Source: a sulfur-oxidizing endosymbiont of Gigantopelta aegis
GTDB lineage: Bacteria; Pseudomonadota; Gammaproteobacteria; GRL18
Direction: 5' to 3'
DNA: 64,000 bases
Assembly: GCF_016097415.1 (NCBI RefSeq)
Contig: NZ_JAEHGE010000001.1
Coordinates: 1,160,914-1,224,913, forward strand
A model generated the notes under the pieces. That model saw only the letters and a program-made list of their open reading frames with translations, did no database searches and was not told where the DNA came from. The translations under genes and the position numbers were made by a program. Positions 162 to 57,367 of the stretch are shown here, in pieces (within the stretch, counting starts at the first letter, position 1; each line of letters opens with the position of its first letter).

Positions 162-2068
162 GTAACTTCTCAATAAGTCTGTGCAAAACTTGAAATAAAA
201 ACAAAAAAAGTCTTGACAGCATTTTAGAGGACAAAAATTGCATTTTCACTGCCCCATGTAATTTATCCCTATAAATGATCCTGTCGATCTGTCTCAGATC
301 GAAATAGAATATTTTTGAATATTATCTTAACTGAGAGGGAGTTTGATCAACACAGGGCAAACTAAAGAGCCTTAAAAAGCCATGATACAATTGTTTTATT
401 GAAAACAACCTGTATTGATTATAGTGAAAAAATTACCTCCAATTCCAGAGATACCTGAAGAAGAAAAGACACCGGTAGTCCGATTACTCCTTGCTTTCAT
501 GGAGCAACAACAGGAAATCATTCAAAACCAACAGGTTGAAATCGATGCCCTTAAAACAGAAGTTGCTAAGCTTAAAAAGCTACCTCCAAAGCCTAAAATA
601 AGAGCCAGTAAATTGCCAAAGGATGATGACAATGATAATCCGACAGGTCATTCAGGAAGCAAGAAAAACAACTCAGGAAATGGGACTAGTAAAAGTCGTA
701 AACGAAAGAAGAAATTGGCTATTCATAAAACCACCGTTATCAAACCAGATAACCTGCCAGAACATTCACGTTTTTTAGGGTATCAGGATTATTTTGTTCA
801 GGAGCTGCTGATTAAGCCTTTCAATACTCGTTATCGATTGGCTCGCTATAAAACACCCGATGGTGATACCTGTATAGGAAAATTGAGCTTTGATACACAT
901 ATAGGACATTTTGGCCATACATTACAGAGTTATATCGTTTATCAATATTATCACCAGAGAGTGACTCAGCCATTGATAATACAACAATTAACAGAATTAG
1001 GTTTTGATATTTCAACGGGTCAGATCAATGAGATTTTAATCCATGACAAAGACCATTTTCATACTGAAAAAATACATTGCTAACTGCCGGTATCAACAAT
1101 AGTACTTATATCCATGTTGATGATACGGGTAGTCGTCATGATGGAAAGAATGGTTATTGTACTCACGTTGGCAATGAAACCTTTGCCTGGTTTTCAAGTA
1201 CTCGATATAAGAGCCGGATTAATTTTCTACAATTAGTTACGAGGTGCTGCTGTTGATTATACGCTCAACGATGCAGCACTTGATTATATGAGAGCAGAAA
1301 AATTACCTCACAAGCCATTGAGCGTTATTGAACAAAGTCATCAGACTTGCTTTGATAATGAAGAAGCCTGGAAATACTATCTGCAGAACAATAGTATCAT
1401 AACACAACGGCATGTTCGCATTGCCACAGAAGGCGCTTTACTGGGGGCATTAATTAACAGTGGCTTTCCAAGTGATTTGGTGATTGTGAGTGATGATGCA
1501 GGACAATTTGATATTTTGTTGCACGCATTATGTTGGATACATGCAGACAGAGTGTTTCAGCGGATACTACCACTCAATGAGCGACATGATAAAGAACTGA
1601 ACTGGGTACATACTCAGATTTGGGAACTATTTTATGATCTCAAACAATATAAACTTGAGCCAGATGATCCGTTGAAGTCAGCGATTGCTGAACATTTTGA
1701 TGAATTGTGCCGGACTAAAACAAGCTTTGAAACGTTGAATCAGGCACTGAAACGATTGGCAAGAAATAAAACAGAATTACTGCTGGTATTGGAACGGCCT
1801 GATATTCCTCTTCATAATAATTTGAGTGAAAATGATATTCGAGAATATGTTATTAAGCGTAAAATTAGTGGTAGTACACGCTCAAAGGATGGGCAACTTT
1901 GCAGAGATACCTTTGTCAGTTTAAAGAAAACTTGTTTGAAACAAGGAATTTCATTCTGGGATTTTATTAATGACCGGATCAGCAAGAGAAATTTGATCCC
2001 ATATCTGCCTGAGTTGCTGAAAGGTAAAGTTTGTGCTGTTTAAATGCACAGACTTATTGAGAAGTTAC
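162..2068 (+). mobile_element. IS66-family element, single-ORF type, copy 1
   Basis: 1907 bp. The terminal inverted repeat begins GTAACTTCTCAATAAGTCTG at 162 and its exact reverse complement ends at 2068. An 8-bp direct repeat AAAAACTT flanks it (154-161 and 2069-2076), the duplication length known for IS66. Only a tnpC-like transposase gene is present; no tnpA or tnpB, as in the ISBst12-type branch of the family. A second copy lies at 56101-59535 on the other strand. Confidence 0.92.
424..2043 (+). pseudogene. IS66-family transposase (TnpC-like), two frameshifts
   Basis: The gene begins at a GTG (424) or the TTG at 415. It has a leucine/glutamine-rich N-terminal helix (MEQQQEIIQNQQ), a basic linker, and the IS66 transposase core with VSDDAGQFD (catalytic Asp region) and a C-terminal NNLSENDIREYVIKRK block (NN...E motif of IS66 transposases). 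Compared with the copy at 56126-59273, one A is missing near 1073 and two extra bases sit near 1237, so the frame breaks twice. The 251-residue C-terminal part from 1288 is open. No intact product can be made without frameshifting. Confidence 0.85.
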
Positions 2069-14290: not shown

Positions 14291-14457
14291 ATCGATTGAT
14301 TGAAGAGGGGTAAAGGCGACATAAATGCCGCCCATTACCGTTGACGGCCATCGGCTCCTCAGCCTGTGCCGTGAAGATATTGTAACAGGATCATTACCGT
14401 TGTGAAAATACCTTGGGTGAATGGAACGGCTCTATCGTTCCAGAGGGCAAAGCCCTT

Positions 14458-15509
14458 CTTGATTACCCACAAAGCTCCGCCATATTTCGATAACTATACT
14501 ATAATTATACTATAATTATACTATAATTAAAGTATAGATTATGTGTGGAGTAGAATGATGTCAAAAAATAAAATTCAGTTTCAAGAAGGTTATAGTTTAT
14601 TTGAGCTTTTTAATGATTATGGCACTGACAAACAGTGCCGACAAGCCTTATTTAAATGGAAATTTCCTGATGGATTTGTTTGCCCAGAGTGTGGCAATAA
14701 GACTTATTGCACTCTAGAACATCGCCATCTTTATCAGTGCCACCATTGTCATCATCAGACATCAGCAACCTGTGGGACAATATTTGATAGTACCAAACTG
14801 CCTTTATCTAAGTGGTTTTTAGCGATTCATCTTATGACTCAATTGAAGACAGCGGTTTCAGCATTAGAATTAAAGAGACAGCTTAAGGTAAGCTACAATA
14901 CAGCCTGGAGTATGAAACAAAAGATCATGCAGGTTATGAAAGAACGTGATGACAGTAAACCTTTATCAGGCATCATTCAAATTGATGATGCCTACTGGGG
15001 TGGTGAGCACAGAGGCGGCTCCAGAGGTCGTGGTTCAAAATAAAACACCGTTCGTTGCAGCCGTTTCTACTAATGAAGATGGACACCCGATTGCAATGAA
15101 TTTAAATGTGCTTAAAGGGTTTAAATCCAGTGAAATAAAACGATGGGCACAAACTCATTTAACACCTGGAAGTACTGTTTACTCAGATGGGTTAAATTGT
15201 TTTCCTGCGGTTAAAGAAGCTGACTGTAAGCATGTTCCAATCGTCACGGGTGGTGGTGCGGCAAGTGTTGATAAAATTGAGTTTATCTGGGTTAACACTA
15301 TGATAGGTAATATTAAAAACTCTCTATGAAGGGAAGCTATCATTCCATTAACTCAAAACATTTACCTCGGTATCTTGCTGAATTTTGTTATCGGTTTAAT
15401 AGACGCTTTAACTTAAAAGACATGATGCCAAGGTTTTTATGCGTGGCGATGAAAACGCCACCTATGAATGGAAAGCTCCTAAAAATGGCGGAGCTTTATG
15501 GGTAATCAA
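14458..15509 (+). mobile_element. IS1595-family insertion sequence
   Basis: 1052 bp with inverted ends CTTGATTACCCACAAAGC (left) and, read inward from the right, CTTGATTACCCATAAAGC. An 8-bp direct repeat AAGCCCTT flanks it (14450-14457, 15510-15517), the size known for IS1595. Removing it restores the IS3 sequence GGGCAAAGCCCTTTCTC. A possible excision footprint of the same element type is at 37284-37311. Confidence 0.93.
14555..15504 (+). pseudogene. IS1595-family transposase, two frameshifts
   Basis: The N-terminal zinc ribbon (CPECGNKTYC...YQCHHCHHQTS) and the ISXO2-like DDE domain are clear. IIQIDDAYWGGEHRGG carries the first Asp, and VYSDGLNCF the second. The downstream part continues in another frame after about 15040, and again after about 15325, where SINSKHLPRYLAEFCYRFNR can be read. 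The transposase is therefore not intact. Start chosen at ATG 14555 (ATG 14558 also possible). Confidence 0.85.
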
Positions 15510-15741
15510 GAAGCCCTTTCTCTTCATCTATTTAAAGTTAACATGAGAAACTAAAATGATAGGAAATACAAAATGACAAAAATCACTTGAAACAGCCAAA
15601 AAAATATTTAGAAAACTGTCCGGAAAAGTGTTGACACATCAAAATTCTTTTTACAAGTCAAAAACAAAGCTATTTACCATTAAATGTACTCCTGAACATA
15701 AAGAGTATTGGGAAAACATAGAAAGAAAGTGGGCTAAAAAT

Positions 15742-36477: not shown

Positions 36478-36720
36478 ATGATAATATTAAATGCTACTGA
36501 AGCACGTTCAAAGCTGTATAGACTTATAGATGAGACGGCTGAGACTCAACAACCCATTGTAATTACAAGTAAAAGAGACAATGCCATTTTAGTATCAGAA
36601 GAAGATTGGAATGCTATTTCTGAAACGCTTCATCTATTGTCGGTACCCGGAATGAGAGAGTCAATCCAGGAAGGATTAAAACAAGATCTATCTGAAAGTG
36701 CCAAGGAACTTGATTGGTGA
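36478..36720 (+). CDS. yefM: Antitoxin of the Phd/YefM family
   Basis: 80 residues. MIILNATEARSKLYRLIDET, then QPIVITSKRDNAILVSEEDW, are the standard DNA-binding fold; the C-terminal EGLKQDLSESAKELDW wraps the toxin in known complexes. The frame is intact although the partner toxin gene is broken. AGAGG precedes the start. Confidence 0.9.
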   Translation: MIILNATEARSKLYRLIDETAETQQPIVITSKRDNAILVSEEDWNAISETLHLLSVPGMRESIQEGLKQDLSESAKELDW

Positions 36721-36969
36721 CTTGGACACTGGTGTATACAAGGCAAGCACAAAAAATTAGCTGCCTCGGGGTTAAAAATTAAAGCAACATTACTTTTGAA
36801 CACCATTCAAAAAGACCCCTACCAAAATCCACTACTGTATGAGACATTGCTGGGTGATTTGTCAGGTGCTTATTCACGCCGAATCAATATTCAACATAGG
36901 CTTGTATATCAAGTGTATGAACAGGAGCATACTATTAAAGTTATCAGACTCTGGACGCATTATGCATAA
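36717..36969 (+). pseudogene. yoeB: YoeB-type toxin, frameshifted near its start
   Basis: GTG 36717 overlaps the antitoxin stop by two bases. The frame begins TWTLVYTRQAQK, then a small deletion near 36755 shifts it. The correct frame continues KLAASGLKIKATLLLNTIQK and DLSGAYSRRINIQHRLVYQV, and ends IRLWTHYA at 36969. The residues usually needed for mRNA cleavage (Arg/His/Tyr at the C-terminus) are still encoded, but no full-length toxin is made. Confidence 0.85.
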
Positions 36970-37136
36970 AAGTTCATTTATAACAAAGTTTGCTTATACT
37001 CACCTATCATTTGGCAAGCTGTAGCTGTCCTTAATCTACTTGGTTTAAAATATATTAACCATAAAGTATGCTATAAATAAATAGAAAATGTAAAAATTTA
37101 TCAGTTAATCAATCATCCAATCTTCAAGGGAATAAA

Positions 37137-38011
37137 ATGTTATCAGGTGTAATGCTATTGTGGTTTATTCTTACCGGTATTTCGGTGCTATTTGTTGCTA
37201 TTGATAGCATTAAAACGCCTGAATCCCCTGTTTTGAAATGGGGCTTTATACTACTTACTGCTTATACCGGTCCCGTGGGTGCATTTCTTTACTTGTAATC
37301 AAGTTTCTTTATGTGCTGGGTTGTCGTGAGCCTTTGCCCGGCTTGCATGAAAAATATACTGCCACGCGCTGGCGTCAGGTATTGGGATCAACGATGCATT
37401 GTGTCGCCGGTGATGGTCTGGGGATTTTAGCTGGAGCAATCTTAGGGGCTGTCATCCAGCTATCCAGACCCTGGGAAATTTCGGTTGAATATTTATTGGG
37501 TTTTGGTTTTGGCTGGACTATCTTTCAGGCTTTGTTTATGAAAGCTTCATCCGGTGGTTCGTTTATTAAAGCCTTAAAGAATACTTTTATTCCAGAACTT
37601 GTTTCAATGAACTATTTGATGGCAGCAATGGTACTCGTCACCACTTTTGGCATGCAGATGATTCCACAAAGTGGCGACCCTCTGACAATGGAGTTCTGGT
37701 TTGTTATGTCGATGGCCTTATTAATCGGATTTGTTGCTGCCTGGCCGATAAACTGGTGGTTGGTCAGTAATCATCTTAAACATGGCATGATGACGGTACG
37801 TCCAAGTGCGAGCCATACGGATGATAAAATGTCGGGACATTCTGCCTCTGTTCACGCAGAGCAAGGTGCTGCTACAGAAGAGCATACAGAAGATCATGAT
37901 GGTGGTGAGCATACGGATAAAGTTTCATCTGTCATGATAGGATTTATGGTGCTGCTATCATTTGTTGTGTTTGGCATCAGTGTCAGTATTGCTCTAATGT
38001 ATGGAAGCTAA
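37137..38011 (+). pseudogene. DUF4396 membrane protein, frameshifted by a 20-bp insertion
   Basis: ATG 37137 reads MLSGVMLLWFILTGISVLFV and continues to GPVGAFLYL, then a stop at 37298. Downstream the other frame reads VLGCREPLPGLHEKYTATRW, the conserved block of DUF4396 proteins, and is open to 38011 with five or so membrane segments. A His/Asp/Glu-rich stretch (about residues 195-235 of the open part) could bind metals. Deleting the 20-bp insertion at 37292-37311 joins GAFLY to VLGCREPLPG directly. Function unknown; it lies four bases upstream of the glutamate-synthase-like gene. Confidence 0.75.
37284..37311. mobile_element. Probable IS1595-type excision footprint
   Basis: TTTCTTTA at 37284-37291, CTTGTAATCAAG at 37292-37303, then TTTCTTTA again at 37304-37311. 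The flanks are an 8-bp direct repeat. The middle 12 bases equal the left end (CTTG) plus the right end (TAATCAAG) of the IS1595 element at 14458-15509, whose ends are CTTGATTACCC and GGGTAATCAAG. The insertion shifts the frame of the host gene. Confidence 0.75.
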
Positions 38012-55862: not shown

Positions 55863-57367
55863 TCCAGTCCCAGTGCCGTTATCACGGTTTAGCATCGATA
55901 TAATTTTTAAAGCAGATGAACGATGTTTAATGGGTTCAGCTTGTTGAGTGATGCTTGTATCTGAACGCTGATAAACAACATAATGACGTGGTTTGCTAGT
56001 GATGATCATTTGGGAGAAATCCTGATTGAAAGTCAGGCCTGAGAAGTCACTCCCGGGTTCTTGAATATTGAGGCTATCCAATAACTTGCCTGTTAAATCG
56101 GTAACTTCTCAATAAGTCTGTGCATTTAAACAGCACAAACTTTACCTTTCAGCAACTCAGGCAGATATGGGGTCAAATTTCTCTTGCTGATCCGGTCATT
56201 AATAAAATCCCAGAATGAAATTCCTTGTTTCAAACAAGTTTTCTTTAAACTGACAAAGGTATCTCTGCAAAGTTGCCCATCCTTTGAGCGTGTACTACCA
56301 CTAATTTTACGCTTAATAACATATTCTCGAATATCATTTTCACTCAAATTATTATGAAGAGGAATATCAGGCCGTTCCAATACCAGCAGTAATTCTGTTT
56401 TATTTCTTGCCAATCGTTTCAGTGCCTGATTCAACGTTTCAAAGCTTCAAAGCTTGTTTTAGTCCGGCACAATTCATCAAAATGTTCAGCAATCGCTGAC
56501 TTCAACGGATCATCTGGCTCAAGTTTATATTGTTTGAGATCATAAAATAGTTCCCAAATCTGAGTATGTACCCAGTTCAGTTCTTTATCATGTCGCTCAT
56601 TGAGTGGTAGTATCCGCTGAAACACTCTGTCTGCATGTATCCAACATAATGCGTGCAACAAAATATCAAATTGTCCTGCATCATCACTCACAATCACCAA
56701 ATCACTTGGAAAGCCACTGTTAATTAATGCCCCCAGTAAAGCGCCTTCTGTGGCAATGCGAACATGCCGTTGTGTTATGATACTATTGTTCTGCAGATAG
56801 TATTTCCAGGCTTCTTCATTATCAAAGCAAGTCTGATGACTTTGTTCAATAACGCTCAATGGCTTGTGAGGTAATTTTTCTGCTCTCATATAATCAAGTG
56901 CTGCATCGTTGAGCGTATAATCAACAGCAGCACCTCGTAACAATTGTAGAAAATTAATCCGGCTCTTATATCGAGTACTTGAAAACCAGGCAAAGGTTTC
57001 ATTGCCAACGTGAGTACAATAACCATTCTTTCCATCATGACGACTACCCGTATCATCAACATGGATATAAGTACTATGATGTGTCAACACTTTTCCGGAC
57101 AGTTTTCTAAATATTTTTTTGGCTGTTTCAAGTGATTTTTGTCATTTTGTATTTCCTATCATTTTAGTTTCTCATGTTAACTTTAAACAGATGAAGAGAA
57201 AGGGCTTTGCCCTCTGGAACGATAGAGCCGTTCCATTCACCCAAGGTATTTTCACAACGGTAATGATCCTGTTACAATATCTTCACGGCACAGGCTGAGG
57301 AGCCGATGGCCGTCAACGGTAATGGGCGGCATTTATGTCGCCTTTTACCCCTCTTCAATCAATCGAT

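Follow-up and report, generated by a model that had tools for sequence, protein, structure and literature searches.

A 20-bp frameshifting insertion in a DUF4396 gene, probably the scar of a lost IS1595-family element

The window analysed here, a stretch of 64,000 nucleotides from the genome of the sulfur-oxidizing endosymbiont of Gigantopelta aegis, contains a DUF4396 gene broken by a 20-bp insertion and, elsewhere, a resident copy of an IS1595-family insertion sequence (IS) between its two target duplications (Table 1). The DUF4396 gene begins with the ATG at 37137 and is interrupted after codon 51-52. Read with the insert, its frame stops after ...GPVGAFLYL at a new TAA (37296-37298), which is formed by the first three bases of the TAATCAAG remnant; taken across the site as in its relatives, the frame continues as ...GAFLYVLGCREPLPGLHEKY and is stop-free to 38011. 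The part downstream of the insertion is recognized by Pfam PF14342 (E=4.6e-34), and the scar still breaks the gene. Directly upstream, at 36478-36970, lies a YefM/YoeB-like antitoxin-toxin pair, identified by eye from the sequence.

Table 1. Positions of the resident element, the broken gene and the parts of the scar, numbered within the window.
Feature	Sequence	Position	Strand	Basis
Resident IS1595-family copy, 1,053 bp, frameshifted transposase		14458..15510	+	sequence; PF12762/PF12760, NF033547 on intact sister copy L002
Left target duplication of resident copy	AAGCCCTT	14450..14457	+	
Right target duplication of resident copy	AAGCCCTT	15511..15518	+	
DUF4396 gene, broken by 20-bp insertion		37137..38011	+	translation; PF14342; alignment of 80 homologues
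8-bp target duplication, copy 1	TTTCTTTA	37284..37291	+	sequence; length and type as in 39 IS duplications of the genome
12-bp remnant	CTTG joined to TAATCAAG	37292..37303	+	sequence; unique in genome
8-bp target duplication, copy 2	TTTCTTTA	37304..37311	+	sequence

The 28 bases at 37284-37311 can be read directly as TTTCTTTA + CTTGTAATCAAG + TTTCTTTA, and every base is as the sequence-only reading had described. The remnant in the middle consists of the first 4 bases of one IS1595-family end (CTTG) and the last 8 bases of the other (TAATCAAG), so that the scar is a net insertion of 20 bp, 12 bp from the element and 8 bp from the duplication. At the joint, CTT-G-TAATCAAG, a single base (G) is common to both sides, and the remnant itself represents the outer 4 bp of a stem plus a TAAT loop. 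What distinguishes an excision remnant is a duplication of the length typical of the family around nothing but terminal bases of both ends, and this is what lies at the site; the anatomy, the match to the element ends and the length of the duplication are all direct observations.

Comparison with relatives of the gene shows, again by direct observation, that the insert is a derived state. Aligned through a highly conserved stretch, none of 80 homologues (0/80; many phyla, 47-85% identity) carries the 20 bp; they are also without an insert at the conserved GAFLYVLGCREP site, and one homologue, L093, has an undivided GCATTCCTTTATGTG at the insertion site. A genome of the same family contains an intact DUF4396 gene that is 81% identical and lacks the insert. 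Related genomes with the same 20 bp as an ancestral segment of the gene had been named beforehand as the observation that would overturn the idea of a footprint, and the insert-free homologues rule out such an ancestry. Within the genus, the DUF4396 gene was not found in any of the 15 other genomes, and no genome was found with the IS still in place at this site.

The sequence-only reading had traced the remnant to an IS1595 element at 14458-15509; the element is indeed there, while its end belongs at 15510. An intact transposase of this IS is 316 aa long and combines a zinc ribbon with a DDE domain of the IS1595 type. In the intact sister copy L002, the DDE_Tnp_IS1595 (ISXO2-like) domain PF12762 is found with E=2.4e-35 and the N-terminal zinc ribbon PF12760, a feature of all IS1595 groups but IS1016, with E=1.1e-13, and NF033547 scores 222 bits against a cut-off of 75. 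AT-rich 8-bp target duplications have also been measured for the IS1595 element ISEc69 (PMC7835479). With its DDE domain, zinc ribbon and 8-bp AT-rich duplication, the resident element is a member of the IS1595 family. Its terminal inverted repeats extend over ~24-30 bp and are ~93% alike over 30 bp. The further objection raised in advance, that an IS1595 copy might be unable to leave such ends, was answered by the presence of both the required ends and the 8-bp duplication.

This IS is abundant. The genome holds ~53 copies, its hits to the end sequence CTTGATTACCCANAAAGCTCCGCC numbering 53 + 53. There are ~41 long copies at 97-100% identity, and among the copies read at least 9 have a full or nearly full transposase frame. 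The window copy lacks 2 bp in GTTCAGAAAATAAAAC (TTCAAAATAAAAC vs TTCAGAAAATAAAAC in other copies), a deletion that is absent from the copies with full-length frames. Because this deletion breaks the transposase frame, the window copy cannot itself be an active source and, being frameshifted and one among ~53, it need not be the parent of the scar. Ahead of their transposase gene, the copies contain between 1 and 8 units of an 11-bp tandem repeat, TATACTATAAT (L001-L030, element positions ~36-80; window 14491-14530), each with a -10-like hexamer. The number of units varies between copies and might tune transposase expression.

Forty insertion sites of the IS were resolved with perfect 8-bp AT-rich duplications, 39 of them in this genome. 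When aligned, these targets are nearly palindromic and AT-rich, the duplicated 8 bp being preceded by CA and followed by TG. The scar target, CA-TTTCTTTA-TG, is directly seen to fit this CA[8 bp]TG preference, its score falling in the top 0.12% of window positions (0.036% in the other orientation), where the leave-one-out median of real sites is 0.65%. Two copies, L247 and L251, are inserted into, or 8 bp beside, other copies of the same IS, showing that the IS can target its own sequence.

The 4.9-Mb genome contains the 12-mer CTTGTAATCAAG a single time, and the repeat around it is the window's one exact 8-bp direct repeat spaced by 12 bp; among all window repeat pairs with spacers of 1-59 bp, only the spacer of the scar begins with CTT and ends with AAG. 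The number of 8-bp repeats expected by chance in the window around any combination of a left end and a right end (spacer 6-40 bp) is 0.003, a figure that does not yet take the 12-bp length or the match to the target site into account. Searches for further scars used patterns that required at least 4 unmutated bases from each element end. The pattern CTTGN{0,24}TAATCAAG gave 58 matches in the whole genome, ~35 of which are one unrelated repeat, and among those read only this scar is flanked by an 8-bp duplication. A target-aware pattern, TTACTTGN{0,30}CAAGNNNNNTTA, gave a second match without a duplication, and no second scar was seen in 15 sister genomes (60 of ~67 loose matches read). The ~35-copy CTTGTGAGG...TATAATCAAG repeat was also considered as the source of the remnant and ruled out, its flanks having no duplication. 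This repeat contains CTTGTGAGGTAATTTTTCTGCTCTCATATAATCAAG, has constant flanks and occurs genome-wide (e.g. window 1279-1314 and 56863-56898); it probably sits inside another high-copy element.

Given the unique 12-mer, the fit of the target, the lone 8-bp repeat with a 12-bp spacer and the insert-free homologues, insertion of an IS1595-family element at TTTCTTTA followed by its near-complete loss is well supported, and we place the probability of this reading at roughly 0.9. A member of the high-copy set would have inserted at TTTCTTTA within the DUF4396 gene, duplicating 8 bp, and would later have been lost almost wholly, with base 4 of one end and base 8 of the other becoming joined at their shared G. 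Such a loss would leave 12 bp of the element plus the duplication, that is, a net gain of 20 bp with a frameshift and a stop. We infer that the site once held a full copy or a deletion derivative of one; the scar is a single case, and 12 bp are too little to identify the copy or derivative that disappeared. The sequence-only reading had gone on to propose imprecise excision of a cut-and-paste element. Insertion and loss of an IS1595 element are borne out by the ends, the 8-bp duplication and the homologues, but the term 'cut-and-paste' exceeds the evidence, as the data fit either transposase-driven or transposase-independent loss.

Most likely, both ends were held together when the loss happened, whether by a transposase whose action was abortive or by inverted repeats that paired in replication: the scar has its two breakpoints no more than 8 bp from the element tips, whereas each of the other deletions examined places one breakpoint or both well inside the element. 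Two of the latter are found in copies that were shortened in place with their duplications kept: a 593-bp copy with a ~514-bp deletion (joint A, 1 base) and an 867-bp copy with a ~166-bp deletion (joint G, 1 base). In each, one breakpoint or both lie far from the element tips, and together they show that deletions with one-base joints do occur in these elements.

The odds of transposase-driven and transposase-free loss are about equal, and each is a serious candidate that falls somewhat short of an even chance. On the one hand, abortive transposition (through a figure-eight or a template switch, as has been proposed for ISApl1, or through a double-strand cut with imperfect joining) may have left the 4 + 8 bp. 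Both breakpoints lie no more than 8 bp from the element ends, other loci of the genome encode intact transposases, and there is a precedent in the IS30 family, in which the recurrent losses of ISApl1 around mcr-1, at joints of 1-4 bp, have been attributed to template switching during abortive copy-out transposition and in which the loss of IS30 itself is ~1000 times more frequent with an active transposase (PMC5821093). However, Ku was not found in this genome or in 15 sister genomes, making Ku-dependent end joining, and with it the classical joining of a cut, unlikely; moreover, none of the papers found establishes how IS1595 elements transpose, and the scar offers one case only.

On the other hand, the element could have been lost without transposase, if its ~24-30-bp inverted ends folded as a hairpin in replication and were skipped by the polymerase, or through another short-homology deletion, with the joint at the shared G. 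The close similarity of the two ends, a remnant made up of the outer stem and loop, and the one-base joints of internal deletions in other copies are consistent with this route, which works without Ku. Judging by precise excision in general, however, slippage between the perfect 8-bp duplications, which would restore the gene exactly, should be preferred to a one-base joint; nor do the internal deletions examined elsewhere ever have both breakpoints near the tips. For Tn10 and Tn5 in E. coli, precise and nearly precise excision is a transposase-independent deletion between short repeats, assisted by the inverted ends. Excision of these elements uses longer direct repeats, whereas the joint in the scar is one base despite the perfect 8-bp repeats.

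The lost element may instead have been a short, non-autonomous, MITE-like derivative with the same ends rather than a full IS. Two-ended shortened forms of 408, 593 and 867 bp exist in this genome, as does a ~220-bp pair of ends in a sister genome (G012), but the 12-bp remnant says nothing about the sequence between the ends and full copies far outnumber derivatives, which leaves a short derivative unlikely. The 408-bp form (L232, G000:C1:3270128-3270535) lies inside one 8-bp duplication and combines a right-end fragment with a 94-bp near-perfect left-end palindrome, resembling the product of a hairpin or an inverted template switch. It is also unlikely that IS1595 transposases, in the manner of some eukaryotic cut-and-paste transposases, cut a few bases inside the element and, after Ku-independent repair, regularly leave scars with 8-bp duplications and the terminal bases of both ends. 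Finally, an origin of the 20 bp independent of the IS, whether by chance insertion, by tandem duplication with added filler or through an error of sequencing or assembly, has nothing specific in its favour and deserves almost no credence, and a chance origin of the scar is for practical purposes excluded, given an expectation of 0.003 or lower, a 12-mer unique in the genome and a site that matches the target preference of the IS.

Loss of an inserted element has parallels in other systems. Eukaryotic cut-and-paste footprints look like the scar, with a duplication around a few terminal bases of both ends, and are made by transposase cuts followed by end joining. Because Ku is absent here, a eukaryote-like cut with end joining is disfavoured. 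Merlin is the eukaryotic relative of IS1595 (PMC8101967). The ISApl1 losses likewise come from natural bacterial genomes in which the IS is gone and a few bases of IS or flank are left at 'ragged' junctions; in contrast to the single scar described here, from the IS1595 family and with an 8-bp duplication, they concern an IS30-family element with 2-bp duplications, a known copy-out-paste-in pathway and many cases (PMC5821093). ISEc69 makes 8-bp AT-rich duplications like those of the resident IS, and the consulted parts of its study deal with insertion and report no scar after loss (PMC7835479). In the titles and abstracts of the open-access literature searched, no excision scars of IS1595 or IS1016 elements are described. 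The scar cleanly illustrates an already known type of event, here in an IS family for which no earlier report was found.

The scar gives a readable history of insertion and loss within a gene, and it shows that IS activity can be recognized as the origin of a small frameshift. IS annotation does not pick up scars of this kind, and IS turnover and IS-caused gene loss are therefore probably undercounted. The ~53 IS copies, with their AT-rich CA[8]TG targets, make this genome well suited to a search for more scars, and whether the loss depends on transposase would inform on the little-studied IS1595 pathway.
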